Positions 2,825 to 25,080 of a DNA stretch of 25,166 nt are shown in pieces (within the stretch, counting starts at the first letter, position 1; each line of letters begins with the position of its first letter). The notes below the pieces were generated by a model. That model was not told where the DNA came from. It saw only the letters and a list, made by a program, of their open reading frames with translations, and did not search any database. Origin of the DNA: a virus; the IMG/VR virus record IMGVR_UViG_3300014060_000014, positions 1 through 25,166 of that record; one strand, given 5' to 3'. Position numbers and translations under genes: made by a program.

Positions 2825-3086
2825 ATGGAATTAATGGAATTAATGGAATTAATCTTATTATAATAGTTACATTAGTTACATTAGTTACATACTTGATGTG
2901 TATTATACTATTGAATGATAAAGAAACAATATGGATTGACAATAGAAAGCATAATATTAAAAAATTATTAGCTAAAGATGATTGTTATTTCGATACGATT
3001 GTTGAATATAATTGTTGGAATGCTTCGGGGTTTATCATTTCAATTTAGAAGAATTATTTGTGTGTATTCAAGAATTAAAAAAATAA
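2825..3086 (+). pseudogene. Broken small membrane protein gene
   Basis: The start at 2825 has a good ribosome site (AGAAGGA). The frame stops after MELMELMELILL, but the next frame continues as a hydrophobic stretch (IIIVTLVTLVTYLMCIILL) and then a polar domain to about 3030. There a second shift in a G-run (about 3026-3029) leads to GVYHFNLEELFVCIQELKK-stop at 3084. Two indels therefore break an otherwise coherent protein of about 85 residues with one transmembrane segment. The 5' end carries two 9-bp triplications. A third fragment, MDSTDSFNEEFFIHL..., runs 3112-3220 and may be more of the same debris. Function unknown. Confidence 0.5.
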
Positions 3087-3201
3087 TAAATCATTACGAA
3101 AGACAATATAAGATGGATAGTACGGATAGTTTTAATGAAGAATTTTTCATACATCTAGGTGTTCTACATCAATATTTAAAGTTTCAATCCGCGTCCTTTT
3201 T

Positions 3202-3209
3202 TATAAATA
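3202..3209 (+). promoter_or_regulatory. Late promoter TATAAATA
   Basis: Exact T4 late-promoter octamer, 37 nt before the ATG of the 3246 gene. In T4 such promoters are read by the gp55/gp33-modified polymerase. Confidence 0.65.
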
Positions 3210-3245
3210 TGTATAATTAATAAACATTAAAAAAAAGGGATAAAC

Positions 3246-3389
3246 ATGAAATTTAAAGATTTAATTGAAGCTAATTCATCTTTAACACATATTGATGAAA
3301 AGTTATCTGATAGTGATAGAAAAAAATGGTATAAATTATTATTGAGCAGATTGCATCGTGAAAACCTGCTTGGTAAAAAAATGCGTTAA
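3246..3389 (+). CDS. 47-residue basic protein with capsid-targeting-like N-terminus
   Basis: The ATG follows an A-rich purine run ending in GGGA and lies 37 nt after a TATAAATA late promoter. The product starts MKFKDLIEANSS. This resembles the T4 internal-protein capsid-targeting sequence (MKTYQEFIAE in IPIII), which the gp21 prohead protease cuts after an L/I-x-E motif; here LIE ends at residue 8. The remaining 39 residues are Lys/Arg rich (DRKKWYK, SRLHREN, LLGKKMR). I infer a small internal head protein processed during capsid maturation, like T4 IPI-IPIII. The late promoter and the shared N-terminus with the 7976 and 24565 products support this. A chance match is possible because the gene is so short. 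Confidence 0.6.
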   Translation: MKFKDLIEANSSLTHIDEKLSDSDRKKWYKLLLSRLHRENLLGKKMR

Positions 3390-3437
3390 AACATTGATAT
3401 TTTTATTAAAATGCAACACATAAATTGAGATTAAGAA

Positions 3438-3498
3438 AACTTCCCATTTTTGGGAAGTTAAAAATTACTTAAAAGTCAATTAATTTTTAAGTAATTTT
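3438..3498 (+). terminator. Two hairpins after the 3246 gene
   Basis: The first is a 9-bp stem AACTTCCCA/TGGGAAGTT (3438-3446/3451-3459) with loop TTTT. The second is an 11-bp stem AAAATTACTTA/TAAGTAATTTT (3461-3471/3488-3498). The first lacks a strong downstream T-run on + but has TTTTCTT on the - strand, so it may stop transcription either way or stabilise the mRNA end. Confidence 0.5.
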
Positions 3499-3832
3499 AA
3501 GATATAATACTTTTTCGGATTGACTGATTTAACGCAATGATGACGCAAACATTATTGTAAATTAAATTTGTTTAATCCACATCAAGGATAACTCAACTGA
3601 TTATCCTAATATATTATTGAGGATGGGATGCATAAAATGAGACACTCTTGGAAAGAAAACTTTTAAAATAAATCAAAACAACTATTGACTTTAATCACGA
3701 TATTTATTATAATGTAATGGTAGTAGAGAAAAACACTACTAAATACATTAAAACATCTACAACATAACTACTATACTGGATTAACCGAAGGTGTAGTTCA
3801 TAGATATTGTAATATTGTTATGTGGCAATATT
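3499..3832 (+). other. Non-coding stretch with a promoter and small hairpins
   Basis: No convincing gene is visible. It holds a short hairpin near 3587-3605 (GATAA/TTATC), the promoter at 3685-3713, a hairpin TAGTAG/CTACTA just downstream (about 3721-3741), and a hairpin of AATATTG/CAATATT just before the next start codon that could sequester the ribosome site. Confidence 0.5.
3685..3713 (+). promoter_or_regulatory. Sigma70-like promoter
   Basis: TTGACT at 3685-3690, 17-nt spacer, TATAAT at 3708-3713. Its -35 is closer to the host consensus than the TTTACA of the other early-type promoters. Confidence 0.75.
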
Positions 3833-4059
3833 ATGGTAGATAAACAAATTATTGAGTTAAAAATGTTATTTGATTCTGTTTTACCAACATTATTATTATT
3901 ATTAACAGCATTTGCATATACCTTTGTGTAACAGCTAAATTCATCATTAATTTTAATAGAAAAAGACGTGAAAAAGAACTTGTCCAACAAGGAATTTATT
4001 CAGTTAATGGTAAACAAACATTAAGTTGGTTTAAAAAGTTACACAATGAAATTAAATAA
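3833..4059 (+). pseudogene. Frameshifted small membrane protein gene
   Basis: From ATG 3833 the frame reads MVDKQIIELKMLFDSV then PTLLLLLTAFAYTFV and stops at a TAA near 3929. The overlapping frame carries on as TAKFIINFNRKRREKELVQQ... to IK-stop at 4057-4059. Joined, the two give a protein of about 75 residues with one transmembrane helix followed by a basic cytoplasmic tail, a common layout for small phage inner-membrane proteins. One indel near 3915-3930 separates them. There is no strong ribosome site; a small hairpin abuts the start. The end overlaps the ribosome site of the next gene. Confidence 0.5.
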
Positions 4060-4069
4060 AGGAACATTT

Positions 4070-4477
4070 ATGTCCAATACAGAAGCAGAAAAAAAATTAT
4101 ATGAATTAGCATTAGAACATGGTGTTTTGGTTGGAAGTCAAGGATTAGGATTAGGTAAAAATAATTCAGATTATGATTATATTATTGACTATAATTTAAT
4201 TACTAAAGCATTAGAAGGTTTTAATATTAATAGTTTAAGTAAAACAAATGCGCGCGGATATTTTAATGTATTGCCACCATTAGGTAATTGTTATCGGATA
4301 ACATTTCGAATTAATACTTGTACGTATGATTTGATTTGTTTTCCTAGTAATGATTATGTTGAAAAAGCACGATTAGCATTTGAAGATTTAAAATGCGTAC
4401 CTTTATATATGTTAGAAGATAAACAAATACGTATTTTATTATTCGAAAAAGCATTAAAAAGTCGTTTTAGTGAATAG
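4070..4477 (+). CDS. Minimal nucleotidyltransferase-fold protein
   Basis: 135 residues from ATG 4070, chosen because AAAGGAA sits 6-7 nt upstream; an in-frame ATG at 4046 lacks a site. Residues about 22-42 carry the pol-beta/MNT signature: VGSQG (the G-S turn), then D-Y-D about ten residues on (NNSDYDYIID). A later YDLI supplies the third acidic residue (about residue 88). Proteins with this fold transfer NMP to small molecules, RNA or protein; MNT-type proteins are often antitoxins or AMPylating enzymes paired with HEPN proteins. No HEPN-like partner is visible next to it, so the substrate is unknown. Family assignment rests on motif reading only. Confidence 0.7.
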   Translation: MSNTEAEKKLYELALEHGVLVGSQGLGLGKNNSDYDYIIDYNLITKALEGFNINSLSKTNARGYFNVLPPLGNCYRITFRINTCTYDLICFPSNDYVEKARLAFEDLKCVPLYMLEDKQIRILLFEKALKSRFSE

Positions 4478-7578: not shown

Positions 7579-7824
7579 ATGAGCGAAATAATCGATACAC
7601 AAGCTGAAGCAGTAGAAAAAGCAGAAATACAAACGATTAGTATTGATGACAAGAAATATGATTTAGCGTCCGTGACTGATTTGGGTTCTAATATCATTTC
7701 GAATATTCAGAAATTGGATTCATTGACTAATGACTTGCAGTTCAAATTAAATGTTAACCAATTGGCACGTGCTAAATTGATCGACGAATTAGGAAAAGAA
7801 ATACCTAAATTTAAAGAAGTTTAA
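7579..7824 (+). CDS. DUF6447-like small phage protein
   Basis: 81 residues with a strong ribosome site (AAAGGAGA). After a variable N-terminus, residues 20-75 read ISIDDKKYDLASVTD then a helical part with IQKLDSLTNDLQFK and LARAKLIDEL. This matches the layout I know from the DUF6447 family: a beta-hairpin (I.IDGK.YDLDSL) followed by a two-helix coil (LQ..D..I..L...L...Q.AR..Y). The family is widespread in T4-like and cyanophage genomes; its function is unknown. It has its own ATTAA-class promoter and is closed by a strong terminator, so it is a one-gene unit. Confidence 0.7.
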   Translation: MSEIIDTQAEAVEKAEIQTISIDDKKYDLASVTDLGSNIISNIQKLDSLTNDLQFKLNVNQLARAKLIDELGKEIPKFKEV

Positions 7825-7849
7825 ATAATTTTAAAATTATTTTATTTTG

Positions 7850-7874
7850 AAAAAGGAGTGAAAGCTCCTTTTTT
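7850..7874 (+). terminator. Rho-independent terminator after DUF6447-like gene
   Basis: Stem AAAAAGGAG/CTCCTTTTT with loop TGAAAG, ending in a run of six T. It separates this gene from the late-promoter gene that follows. Confidence 0.9.
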
Positions 7875-7939
7875 GTTTGAATTAATATGAAGAAGAAATA
7901 CACTAGACACAAAAAAAACATAAACACATAGATGAATAA

Positions 7940-7947
7940 TATAAATA
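7940..7947 (+). promoter_or_regulatory. Late promoter TATAAATA before the Dps-like gene
   Basis: Exact T4-type late octamer, 28 nt before the ATG at 7976 and just after a terminator, so it is the natural promoter of that gene. Confidence 0.8.
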
Positions 7948-7975
7948 AAAAGTAAAATAACTTAAGGAAACCAAA

Positions 7976-8464
7976 ATGAGTATTAAATTCAGAGAATTAT
8001 TAGAACAATCTAGTAATACAAACACAACTAAAACTGATAATATTGAATTGAATGAAAGTGTTGTAGATAGTTTACAAAGTATTGTTAATTCATTAGTAGA
8101 TGCAGCTAATGTTGCACAAGTGGCCCATTGGAATTTGCGTTCTAAATCATTTATTTCACTTCATCCATGGTTAGGTGAAACATATCAGACTTTAAATGAT
8201 ATGGTTGATGGTGTTGCTGAACAAATTAAAATTTCAAATATTAATCTTATGGTAAATGTATCACCAAGTACAATCGTTCCATTTAGTAATGAAAACATCT
8301 TATTCGAATATCTATTATCTTCTATTGAAAGAGTCAATAATGAATTAGATATGGCTGCTGATGATATAAGTATTCCAAGACCATTACAGAATTTGATTGA
8401 TAATTGGATTACTACAGTAAGTAAAATTATTTGGACTATTAAAGCGTCTAAACAAGAATCATAA
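7976..8464 (+). CDS. Dps-like ferritin with capsid-targeting-like N-terminus
   Basis: 162 residues, the normal size for Dps (miniferritin). Residues 50-84 carry the family signature: H51-W-N, LH63 and DGVAE with D78 and E82. These are exactly the numbers of E. coli Dps ferroxidase ligands H51, H63, D78 and E82. The fifth ligand, D67, is Gly here, with Glu at 68, so iron binding may be altered. The C-terminal WTIKAS matches the last Dps helix. The N-terminus MSIKFRELLEQSS differs from usual Dps tails. It resembles T4 internal-protein targeting peptides, with LLE before the expected protease cut. The gene stands alone between a terminator and a middle-type promoter and has an exact late promoter. 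I infer a DNA-binding or protective protein packaged in the head. Confidence 0.85.
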   Translation: MSIKFRELLEQSSNTNTTKTDNIELNESVVDSLQSIVNSLVDAANVAQVAHWNLRSKSFISLHPWLGETYQTLNDMVDGVAEQIKISNINLMVNVSPSTIVPFSNENILFEYLLSSIERVNNELDMAADDISIPRPLQNLIDNWITTVSKIIWTIKASKQES

Positions 8465-15223: not shown

Positions 15224-15315
15224 AAAATTATCAATGAAAAATTGTTTACACATCCTTGTTTGTTATTGCTAAAGAGTTGGGTGTATATACAATATGTAAT
15301 TTAAGAAGGATATTA

Positions 15316-16923
15316 ATGAAACAATTTGAAGCAACATGGATGCAAGACTGGAAGCATTATGAAAGATATTATGACACAGAATTAAAAAAATCAGTTAAAA
15401 GACAAATCGATATACCTTACGAGTATTATGAGCCTTCATCTACTGGTTTATACACTTATATTCTTGACGAGAGTATTATATTAGAGAAGAAGCAAGGTAA
15501 TGCTAAACAAGCTCGTGATAATTACGGTGTTTTAGACCCAATGTATCGTAACATTCGAGACAATTATTGGGGTAAAACTGGCGGATTTAATATTAAGCCA
15601 CGCATGTGGTATTTAGATATTGAAACACGTGTTGGTACTTGTTCAACCGGATTTCCTGTTCCTAATTTAGCAATTGAACCTATTTCTATGTTTCAAATTT
15701 ATGATAATCATGAAGAATGTGTAATCATGTTAGGTGTCCGTGATTGGGTACATAAAGAAGATTATGAAGATAAATTTGAATGTCCTGTAAAATATATTAA
15801 TTGTAAAAATGAATATGATTTAATTAAAACATTCATATCATTATTCGAAAAACTTGACCCTTTAGTCTTATTAGCATGGAACGGTAATGGATTCGATTAT
15901 CCATACATCTATAATCGATTCAAAAAATTAGGATTTAAACAATTATCTAATTATGGTAATGTTTCATTAACTGAACGTGAAATTAAAGGTCGAATGATTT
16001 ATAGTATTAAGTCAAATGGTCATTTCTTCGTAGATTTAATGGAAGTTTATCAGAAATTTACATTTAAACCTAGACCAAGTTATGCATTAGATTATATTGC
16101 TGAAGTTGAATTAAAAGAAAATAAGGTTAATCACTCGGAATTCGTTAATTTTGATGACTTTTATACAGGTAATTATGTAATTCCTATTAATCCTAATGAA
16201 AATCAAAAAAATTCAAAAATATATCAAGAAGCAATTAAAAATGGTATAACTGATGAAGTACGTGAGTTAGGTCATTCAACATTCTGTTATTATGCTTACA
16301 AAGACCCAATGTTGATATATAACATAGATAAAAAATTAAACTTGACTACACTAATGTCAATGATTGCCGAGAAAATGGGTGTACAAATTGGTGATGCATT
16401 AGGTACAGTGAAGCCATGGTCACAATATATCACTAATAGATCATATGCTAATGGTCGTGTTATGCCACCCAAAAAGCAATTCGACAAGCCTTATATCGTC
16501 GGTGGTTATGTTAGATCTCCTGTAGTTGGTAAACATAAATGGGTATTATCAGCTGATGTTAATTCAATGTATCCTTTATTAGGAATGGTTGGATTTAATA
16601 TGTCACCTGAGACATTTGTACCTAAAAGTCAATTACCAGCAGAATTACGGGATGTTGTAATGACATATTTCAATGACCAACTTGAAGAAAAAAGATTGGA
16701 ATTACCTGAAGATGTATGGCAATTAACAGAAGCATTATTAAAAAAATACAATAAAGCTCTTGGTATAAATGGTGCAGTTTTTGATAAATCAGCATTAGGT
16801 ATGGTTCCTGAAATGGTTTTAGAAATATATAATAATCGTAAAAAAGCTAAAAAGACAATGTTAGCTTATGAAGATCGTAAAATTATGATTCGTGAAATTC
16901 TAAAAGGACGTAAAGATGTCTGA
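15316..16923 (+). CDS. 43A: DNA polymerase, N-terminal part (gp43 type, split)
   Basis: 535 residues. The start at 15316 is chosen because AAGAAGGA lies 6 nt before it and the upstream in-frame reading has no ATG. It holds the T4-type 3'-5' exonuclease: Exo I YLDIETR (D101, E103), Exo II WNGNGFDYPY (D194), and Exo III YAYKDPMLIY (D330). Palm motif A is SADVNSMYP (D414). Motifs B and C lie in the separate ORF at 17092. Together the parts total about 907 residues, close to the 898 of T4 gp43. The break lies after the finger helices (KKAKKTMLAYEDRK), before motif B. T4-like Aeromonas phages are known to carry a similar split (43A/43B), so the two chains probably assemble into an active enzyme. 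Confidence 0.93.
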   Translation: MKQFEATWMQDWKHYERYYDTELKKSVKRQIDIPYEYYEPSSTGLYTYILDESIILEKKQGNAKQARDNYGVLDPMYRNIRDNYWGKTGGFNIKPRMWYLDIETRVGTCSTGFPVPNLAIEPISMFQIYDNHEECVIMLGVRDWVHKEDYEDKFECPVKYINCKNEYDLIKTFISLFEKLDPLVLLAWNGNGFDYPYIYNRFKKLGFKQLSNYGNVSLTEREIKGRMIYSIKSNGHFFVDLMEVYQKFTFKPRPSYALDYIAEVELKENKVNHSEFVNFDDFYTGNYVIPINPNENQKNSKIYQEAIKNGITDEVRELGHSTFCYYAYKDPMLIYNIDKKLNLTTLMSMIAEKMGVQIGDALGTVKPWSQYITNRSYANGRVMPPKKQFDKPYIVGGYVRSPVVGKHKWVLSADVNSMYPLLGMVGFNMSPETFVPKSQLPAELRDVVMTYFNDQLEEKRLELPEDVWQLTEALLKKYNKALGINGAVFDKSALGMVPEMVLEIYNNRKKAKKTMLAYEDRKIMIREILKGRKDV

Positions 16924-17095
16924 ATGTACAAAAACATGTAGTAAATGTAACACTGAAAAAAATATCAAAGACTTCCATAAAGGACAAGGTTACTGTAAAC
17001 AATGCATAAAACAATATCATGTTGAGAACCATCGTAAAAAGTTTAAGGAAGTCTTTGATATAATTTCTAATATGAAATTAGAAGGGGATTTATGA
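16916..17095 (+). CDS. Tiny zinc-ribbon protein between the polymerase halves
   Basis: 59 residues. It carries CSKCNTEKNIKDFHKG then YCKQC: two CxxC pairs that would bind one zinc. This module is typical of the N-terminus of phage HNH-type homing endonucleases, which continue with the nuclease domain. Here nothing follows except a Lys-rich tail, so the catalytic domain is missing. The ATG overlaps the end of 43A by 8 nt and the stop overlaps the start of 43B (ATGA), so all three ORFs are translationally coupled. AAAGGA precedes it. It may be the stump of the element that split the gene, or it may have been kept as a small DNA-binding or bridging peptide. Confidence 0.75.
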   Translation: MSECTKTCSKCNTEKNIKDFHKGQGYCKQCIKQYHVENHRKKFKEVFDIISNMKLEGDL

Positions 17096-18210
17096 AAGAC
17101 GTACTTGAATATACAAAAGAACAATTAGAAGTAATGTCAACAGAACAACTTGAAAAATTAGAACTTGAGGCAGAAAACAAAGAATCATTTTATAATACAC
17201 AACAATTAGTTGAAAAAACATTAATTAACTCTTTGTATGGTGCACTAGGTAATAAATATTTCCCATTATTTAATGAAGATATGGCAGCAGCAATTACAGG
17301 TAATGGTCGATATTTTATTCGTAAGTTAGCTAATATGATTGAATATACATTACAAAAAATGAATCCAATTAATGAAGAATATATCATTTATGGTGACACG
17401 GATTCTATTTACTATCATATTGAACCATTTATTAATATGTACATAGAAAAAAATCCTGGGTTAGATATTAATGAATATGTAGATTGGTCAGATAAGTTTG
17501 AAATTAAAGTGATTCAACCGGTCATTAAACAATGTATCGCTGAGTTTGCTGAACAACTTAATTCATATGATGCAAAAATCATTGGTGTTGCACGTGAAAT
17601 TATTTCTGATGCGGCTGTATTCACTGCCAAGAAAAAATACTTTGCCCGTGTAAGGGATTCTGAAGGTACTCGTTATCCAGCAAATGATCCTTATATTAAA
17701 GTAATGGGATTAGAAATTGCAACATCTGGTATTCCACCTTGGGTTAAAACTAAATTAAATTCAGTAATTCCATTAATTTTAGATAAAACAGAATCTGAAG
17801 TTAAAGCATGGTTTAAAGAAACAAAATCTGAATATACATCTGTTGCTTTGAATGATATCGCTAAAACTGGTTCTGTTAATAACATGCAATATACACTGGG
17901 TGAAAAAGGTATTCCAATAGGAGCTCGTTCTGCATTAGTTCATAATGCTTATATTAAAGAGAAATGTTTAGACAACAAGTACTCTCCAATTCACCCAGGT
18001 GATAAATGTAAACGATTATTCTTAGTTAAGAATAACCCATTTGACAGTAATATTATTGCATACACTAATGAGTTATTTGTACAAGAAGTCAAAGATTATA
18101 TTGATTATGATGTGAACTTCGAAAAGAATTTCTTATCGCCATTAAAAATCATGACTGACCCGTTACAATGGGATATGACAGTTGAAACAAAAGCATTAGA
18201 TGATTGGTAA
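17092..18210 (+). CDS. 43B: DNA polymerase, C-terminal part (gp43 type, split)
   Basis: 372 residues after GAAGGGG. It carries motif B, LINSLYGALGN (45-54), and motif C, YGDTDSIYY (D102 and D104 are metal ligands). The thumb and a C-terminal tail follow, where T4 gp43 binds the sliding clamp; the chain ends ETKALDDW. The first residues MKDV repeat the KDV that ends the N-terminal part (16912-16920), so the ancestral reading was ...GRKDVLEYTKEQL... without loss. Neither half could polymerise alone: motif A is in 43A, and B and C are here. It is coupled by ATGA overlap to the zinc-ribbon ORF. Confidence 0.93.
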   Translation: MKDVLEYTKEQLEVMSTEQLEKLELEAENKESFYNTQQLVEKTLINSLYGALGNKYFPLFNEDMAAAITGNGRYFIRKLANMIEYTLQKMNPINEEYIIYGDTDSIYYHIEPFINMYIEKNPGLDINEYVDWSDKFEIKVIQPVIKQCIAEFAEQLNSYDAKIIGVAREIISDAAVFTAKKKYFARVRDSEGTRYPANDPYIKVMGLEIATSGIPPWVKTKLNSVIPLILDKTESEVKAWFKETKSEYTSVALNDIAKTGSVNNMQYTLGEKGIPIGARSALVHNAYIKEKCLDNKYSPIHPGDKCKRLFLVKNNPFDSNIIAYTNELFVQEVKDYIDYDVNFEKNFLSPLKIMTDPLQWDMTVETKALDDW

Positions 18211-24453: not shown

Positions 24454-24493
24454 AAACCTTTTGTATTATAAATATAGTTACAAAAGGTTTTTT
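24454..24493 (+). terminator. Terminator after the helicase gene
   Basis: 12-bp stem AAACCTTTTGTA/TACAAAAGGTTT (24454-24465/24479-24490) with a T-run after it. The loop carries TATAAATA (24467-24474), the late-promoter octamer. Confidence 0.85.
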
Positions 24494-24529
24494 AGTATTT
24501 AAGGTATGTAAATTATTATTTTTTACATG

Positions 24530-24537
24530 TATAAATA
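24530..24537 (+). promoter_or_regulatory. Late promoter TATAAATA before the 24565 gene
   Basis: Exact late octamer, 27 nt upstream of the ATG at 24565 and after the helicase terminator. Confidence 0.8.
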
Positions 24538-24564
24538 TTTTAATAATTAAAAAAAGGAAAATGT

Positions 24565-25080
24565 ATGACTATAAAATTTAAAGAATACGTTAAAATGATT
24601 CATGAATGTGAAGAATTACTTAAGAAAATAGAAGGTGAATTAGTTAAATTATCAGAAGATGATTTAGATGATTTTGGTGATTTTTTGATTGATTCATTTT
24701 TTGAAGATGAAGAAGATGAAGAATATGGTATTTATGAATTATCAGATGTAATGGAAATTATTAATGAATTAGGTCCTGAATTCTATGATGATATACTAGC
24801 AGAATTAGAATATTATGAAGAAGACGACGAATTAGAAGAAGGTGTTTCACGTCGTATGAAAACTAAATCATTTAATCGTAAGAATCGTAAATATATGAGC
24901 AAGACTAAATCAAATTTACGTAAAGAAAAGGCGAAAAGACGTAAGGAAAATCGTAAATCAAAAGCGAAAAGAAAACGCTACTATAAAATAAATAAGAAGA
25001 AAATTTCAGCATATCAAAAAAGTAGAAATACAGCCATTAAGAAAGGCAAACATAAAACAAAAGTTCGTAAAGTTACATAA
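24565..25080 (+). CDS. Acidic/basic two-part protein, probable prohead core protein
   Basis: 171 residues after AAAAAAAGGAAAA. Residues 1-92 are very acidic (SFFEDEEDEEYG, LEYYEEDDELEE). Residues 93-171 are extremely basic (KAKRRKENRKSKAKRKRYYK). The switch coincides with LEE-G (90-93), the kind of L-x-E/G site cut by the T4 gp21 prohead protease. The N-terminus MTIKFKEYVKMIHE resembles the capsid-targeting-like starts of the 7976 and 3246 products and has IHE at 12-14. I infer a head core or internal protein whose maturation frees a basic DNA-binding peptide and an acidic fragment, by analogy with T4 gp67/gp68 and internal peptides. The late promoter agrees. Confidence 0.72.
   Translation: MTIKFKEYVKMIHECEELLKKIEGELVKLSEDDLDDFGDFLIDSFFEDEEDEEYGIYELSDVMEIINELGPEFYDDILAELEYYEEDDELEEGVSRRMKTKSFNRKNRKYMSKTKSNLRKEKAKRRKENRKSKAKRKRYYKINKKKISAYQKSRNTAIKKGKHKTKVRKVT

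Follow-up and report, generated by a model that had tools for sequence, protein, structure and literature searches.

Why would a T4-type phage carry a gene for a Dps miniferritin, and would its product act in the cytoplasm of the infected cell or inside the phage head? This question is raised by a gene in the IMG/VR virus record IMGVR_UViG_3300014060_000014, of which the whole stretch analyzed (25,166 bases, G+C 28%) is called the window here. The nearest kin of its DNA polymerase, helicase, clamp loader, and other proteins are found in the T4-like Vibrio phages phiKT1024, pv27, phiTY18, and Va1 (191–195 kb), with polymerase identities of about 58–60%. Campylobacter phages such as CP220 come next (polymerase identity 44%). 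The polymerase gene of the window (15256–18210) is in two parts with an ORF for a 59-residue Cys-rich protein (16916–17095) between them, and phiKT1024 is split likewise. The 25,166-base fragment contains no head genes, and hence the phage's own prohead protease was not seen. From the evidence presented below, it is probable that the phage has taken a Dps miniferritin into service as a protein of the head interior, where it would protect DNA against Fe(II) and peroxide.

The original prediction had named a Dps signature with His51, His63, Asp78, and Glu82 in E. coli register, and had proposed structure prediction as a check. The gene, which starts with ATG, and its surroundings were annotated as follows:

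7976–8464, plus strand: Dps gene with a predicted N-terminal propeptide, 162 aa (profile, PDB sequence, and fold matches)
7964–7969, plus strand: ribosome binding site AAGGAA (read from the sequence)
8126–8221, plus strand: ferroxidase-centre residues His51 (8126–8128), His63 (8162–8164), Asp78 (8207–8209), and Glu82 (8219–8221) (from alignments)

The product matched the Pfam Ferritin profile (7e-6, over the curated cut-off), PHROG 3636 (5e-13), and the NCBIfam Dps model (1e-10, yet under that model's cut-off). Among PDB sequences, Dps chains were matched (best 5e-6). An AlphaFold model, for which the window and the fetched loci served as input (pLDDT 79.5), showed a four-helix bundle (helices 27–53, 59–86, 106–128, and 135–161), and its top-scoring PDB fold matches were Dps chains (best E 8.6e-5, TM about 0.73). 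Like the bacterial Dps of E. coli and Agrobacterium (PDB 1dps, 1o9r), the protein thus combines the four-helix fold with the four named residues, which aligned in exact E. coli register. It differs from them in having a predicted removable propeptide in place of the Lys-rich N-terminal tail, a poorly modelled B-C loop, and Gly instead of Asp67. The last of these had been missed before: four of the five residues of the ferroxidase set (His51, His63, Asp67, Asp78, and Glu82) are present, while position 67 is Gly, with an acid at 68.

The N-terminus MSIKFRELLE is of the type that directs T4 internal proteins into the head. For targeting of T4 IPIII, its first 10 residues are enough; gp21 sites have the form L/I-x-E, the propeptides of the T4 internal proteins comprise 10–19 residues, and foreign proteins have been delivered by fusion to a capsid-targeting sequence (CTS) (PMC9026906). 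The elements that bear on this point are:

7976–8005, plus strand: CTS-type N-terminus MSIKFRELLE, ending at the originally proposed cut site LLE10/Q11; core shared with T4 IPI/II/III, the Dps of a second viral contig (L017, see below), and other late ORFs of the window
7940–7947, plus strand: T4-type late promoter TATAAATA, exact match, first base 36 nt before the ATG, 28 nt upstream
7848–7875, plus strand: candidate terminator of the upstream gene 7579–7824 (consensus scan, 3 G-C pairs only)
3202–3389, plus strand: related element with a late promoter (3202–3209) and a small CTS-type ORF (3246–3389) starting MKFKDLIEANSS
24467–25080, plus strand: related element with two copies of TATAAATA (24467 and 24530) and a CTS-type ORF (24565–25080)

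MSIKFRELLE conforms to the CTS core [FY]-x-[DEQ]-[FL]-[ILV], a pattern matched at only 1.1% of internal Met positions. In this respect the T4 style originally seen in MSIKFRELLE/QSS was borne out, but the cut site LLE/Q is shifted by one residue from the T4 register (FIAE/A). The start is not a coincidence, because all four plus-strand copies of TATAAATA in the window precede an ORF starting M(x)KF[KR][DE], namely those at 3246 (MKFKDLIEANSS), 7976 (MSIKFRELLEQSS), and 24565 (MTIKFKEYVKMIHE), the last behind two copies. The 47-residue product of ORF 3246–3389 had no family match. We rejected the octamer alone as evidence, since it is rarer than expected by chance (six copies in the window, four of them on the plus strand, versus 10.9 expected from shuffled sequence). 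Its pairing with CTS-type N-termini is significant, however: taking the window and the L017 contig together, such an N-terminus was found in 5/5 ORFs directly behind TATAAATA and in 5/58 others (p=3.6e-5). The exact late promoter described originally is present, and it predicts late expression of the Dps gene; the three T4 ip genes, in contrast, lack TATAAATA directly upstream. The gene was also held to be isolated from its neighbours by a terminator. Upstream, the scan returned one weak candidate versus 0.3 expected, whereas no terminator was found downstream, so that isolation is suggested on one side only.

As a control, the core pattern ^M.{0,4}[FY].[DEQ][FLYVIH][LIVTSH] was run on T4 ORFs. 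It matched 7 of 239, comprising IPI, IPII, IPIII, 61.1, rI.-1, and two enzymes, and thus recovered the known internal proteins (3/3). An L/I-x-E[AGS] site in about residues 6–32 was present in 18/27 core-bearing ORFs compared to 37/571 others (p=3e-14), a count made on mechanically predicted ORFs of the window, the L017 contig, phiKT1024, and T4 that includes the known T4 proteins within the 18.

Further CTS-type starts were observed along the way. T4 gene 61.1 (NC_000866 18966–19130), which is outside the known internal proteins, starts with the CTS-like MKTFKEFIKED. At least seven small proteins of phiKT1024 (OM249648; 16404, 18128, 55539, 139981, 157931, 161431, and 162362) have a CTS-type core start; most then carry an L/I-x-E site, and they are candidate head cargo. 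The product of ORF 24565–25080 is very acidic in its first half and very basic in its second, and the two meet at LEE/GVSRR; the phiKT1024 counterpart of this junction reads LDE/AVSR. We predict that cleavage turns this product into a basic internal protein of the head. Its Vibrio homologue starts MKFKQFLAE/SDE, in the register of the T4 CTS MKTYQEFIAE/A.

A search for other phage Dps with the same N-terminus, also proposed originally, led to the viral contig L017 (20.3 kb, 39% G+C). Its Dps is 50% identical to the window Dps over residues 3–158 and has the same layout, with the start MKFNDFLQQENKVEAEPLTEG (MKFNDFLQQ). The gene is the third of a late operon. This contig contains seven ORFs with a CTS-type start in two late operons, the first with MKFRDLIEN, MKFTDFLTEA, and MKFRDLIEQ, and the second with MSFIEFLEQ, MKFNDFLQQEL, the Dps, and MNEMKFTDFLQ; in either operon, TATAAATA starts 32–33 nt ahead of the first ATG. 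One of these ORFs (2884–4443) encodes a 519-residue AAA-type ATPase (PHROG 1250), which has the start MKFRDLIEQ and an LTE/A site and is apparently head-addressed as well. The gene order is common to L017 and the window, with a MoxR-like ATPase upstream of the Dps gene and a clamp loader downstream. Neither Dps gene looks freshly acquired, because each has the same G+C content as its own phage.

Only two tagged true Dps, those of the window and L017, were found: L017 was alone among viral contigs in having a close homologue, and there was none among 84,980 bacterial and archaeal genomes. No ferritin-family match was obtained in phiKT1024, KVP40, P-SSM2, or a Pelagibacter phage. A DNA pattern of TATAAATA plus CTS, run across viral contigs, returned three unrelated proteins only and was set aside.

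The Dps proteins of other phages are built differently. Those of Streptomyces and Lactobacillus phages share PHROG 3636, the HWN motif, and the ferroxidase residues with the window Dps, but they belong to unrelated phage lineages, have no propeptide, and keep Asp67 in those compared. The Dps of Campylobacter phage CP220 (CPT_0123) comes from a related T4-like phage and keeps H51, H63, D78, and E82; it differs in its length of 143 residues, its start at helix A without a propeptide, its 17% identity, and its neighbourhood. As these proteins are untagged and presumably cytoplasmic, the window Dps might likewise be expressed late and stay unpackaged in the cytoplasm, its N-terminus being a coincidence or serving another role. 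We regard this as quite unlikely, since the tag is conserved in L017, is common to unrelated neighbouring late ORFs, and is joined to a conserved L-x-E site. The original prediction had counted homologues that lack the motif while keeping the late promoter as evidence against itself. No such case was encountered; the tail-less CP220 gene is also without TATAAATA in the 116 nt upstream. Targeting of the window Dps to the head is a well supported prediction.

Where the propeptide would end was assessed by comparing the two possible cut sites, which yielded the following features:

8006–8056, plus strand: spacer, residues 11–27, ending in the preferred prohead-protease site LNE27/S28 (disordered in the model; aligned with the L017 site)
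8057–8461, plus strand: predicted mature Dps, residues 28–162, 15.1 kDa, pI 4.55 (helix A from residue 27; computed charge)

The mature protein had been expected to start at Gln11. LLE10/Gln11 also fits L-x-E, but we demoted this cleavage because the L017 protein lacks the site, which is also out of T4 register. LNE27/Ser28 is favoured: the homologue shares it, as the aligned LTE20/Gly21, helix A begins at this point, and T4 IPI is similar in having the same plan of tag, spacer, and site (MKTFKEFTSTTTPVSTITE19/A). A mature protein of 135 residues starting at Ser28 is the more likely product, although E10 may be cut as well. Like T4 IPI, IPII, and IPIII, the window protein has a short N-terminus with an F/Y-x-D/E-F/L-hydrophobic core and a downstream L/I-x-E cut site. 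Its cargo, however, is an acidic Dps miniferritin, whereas the T4 proteins are basic.

This charge bears on what the protein could do with DNA. E. coli Dps condenses DNA, and a packaged Dps might condense or coat the genome in the head as in the stationary-phase nucleoid, a function that the original prediction had entertained; T4 internal proteins, too, are thought to interact with DNA (PMC9026906). The predicted mature form has a computed net charge of about -7 and a pI of 4.55, no N-terminal tail would be left after cleavage, and residues 1–27 themselves have a charge of -2.5 and lack the Lys-rich tail of DNA-binding Dps. Moreover, the best PDB fold match is the Agrobacterium Dps, the entry title of which describes it as protecting DNA without binding. 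Because the mature protein is acidic and without a Lys-rich tail, condensation is highly improbable.

The window Dps also touched PHROG 858 and the DUF5856 profile (21.4 bits, under the curated cut-off of 34.6), the families of T4 rI.-1 (NC_000866 58819–59205; L039 8819–9205, minus strand), which has the CTS-like start MKFSDF. These proteins are probably distant relatives of the window Dps and not of the same family. Family loci (L042–L132) were compared: H33, H42, D57, and E61 were invariant in 26 diverse rI.-1 sequences, with the Dps spacing H-x14-D-x3-E, and a profile comparison paired them with H51, H63, D78, and E82 (probability 88.8, E 2.5e-6). The AlphaFold model of T4 rI.-1 was a confident four-helix bundle. 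Since a fold search with this model against the PDB gave mostly Dps/ferritin-like structures at the top, none of them significant (best E 0.05), the Dps nature of rI.-1 rests on the residue pattern and the profile comparison. The Straboviridae members examined start with MKF[SNDE][DE]F or a variant, a CTS-like start as in the window Dps, while Ackermannviridae phage PhiSH19 and most unclassified metagenomic members start directly at helix A. Unlike the window Dps, rI.-1 proteins mostly have no L-x-E cut site near the start, and they are located in the rI operon. The only link reported for rI.-1 so far is to lysis inhibition, which was slightly affected when it was over-expressed (PMC6832632).

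In published mass spectrometry, a member of this family was detected with virus particles. The virions came from the T4-like Klebsiella phages ValerieMcCarty03/04 and had been purified in CsCl; gp108/100, annotated as 'starvation-inducible transcriptional regulator', was represented by 26/27 peptide spectra and is one of 40 proteins called virion components (PMC13119998 Table 3). In the deposited ValerieMcCarty03 genome, we found gp108 to be the rI.-1 homologue adjoining rI. It starts MKFNDFVKDG, and its first six residues are those of the L017 Dps. These data suggest that a distant Dps-like relative sits in related virus particles; they are supportive and not proof, because the same table includes likely carry-over proteins such as RNA ligase and helicase (PMC13119998). 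Together with the 50% identical homologue of the same layout and the other ORFs with the same start, they agree with a Dps apparently addressed to the head. Whether the rI.-1/DUF5856 family, including T4 rI.-1, consists of CTS-addressed, virion-carried, injected miniferritins, so that head-packaged Dps-like proteins would be general in T4-type phages, is a tentative extension to which we give somewhat less than an even chance.

Iron chemistry in the head is a separate matter from packaging. The window protein could be internal to the head and still folded as a Dps, yet have lost this activity, being either an injected host-takeover or anti-restriction protein or a core filler. Asp67 is replaced by Gly, with the acid at 68, in both tagged copies, the other tagged L017 proteins are diverse and unrelated, and T4 IPI, once injected, inhibits a restriction enzyme (PMC3012670). 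Nevertheless, H51, H63, D78, and E82 are invariant in all viral Dps compared, which is unexpected for an idle metal site, and we consider this possibility unlikely. Despite the change at position 67, the four kept residues argue for iron and peroxide chemistry.

Because the Dps carries a T4-type head address label, the viral genome is probably packaged together with a DNA-protecting protein. By analogy with T4, the CTS-type N-terminus would bind the prohead core, a gp21-type protease would cut E27/S28 and perhaps also E10/Q11, and the 135-residue acidic core would remain in the head with the DNA. The protein could then be delivered with the genome or be active in the particle; it would bind Fe(II), consume peroxide, and protect packaged or incoming DNA from Fenton damage, without condensing it. 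If the protein is packaged, action after injection has about an even chance; action in the particle is less likely, and some other role is rather improbable. A whole Dps shell measures about 9 nm. As this is wider than the tail tube, injected Dps would have to pass as separate subunits, as beta-galactosidase fusions evidently do (PMC9026906).

We found no paper on a head-packaged phage Dps in a literature search that covered few subscription journals; new here would be a T4-type internal protein with Dps as cargo. T4-type internal head proteins with a known role serve in anti-restriction or host takeover, and a head miniferritin would add chemical protection of the genome. The N-terminal label is readable from sequence and can serve to predict what uncultured phages carry in their heads. 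Through the extension to rI.-1, the idea becomes directly testable in phage T4 itself. If it is true, the window Dps would be the textbook-Dps version of the same strategy, guarding phage DNA from iron and peroxide.
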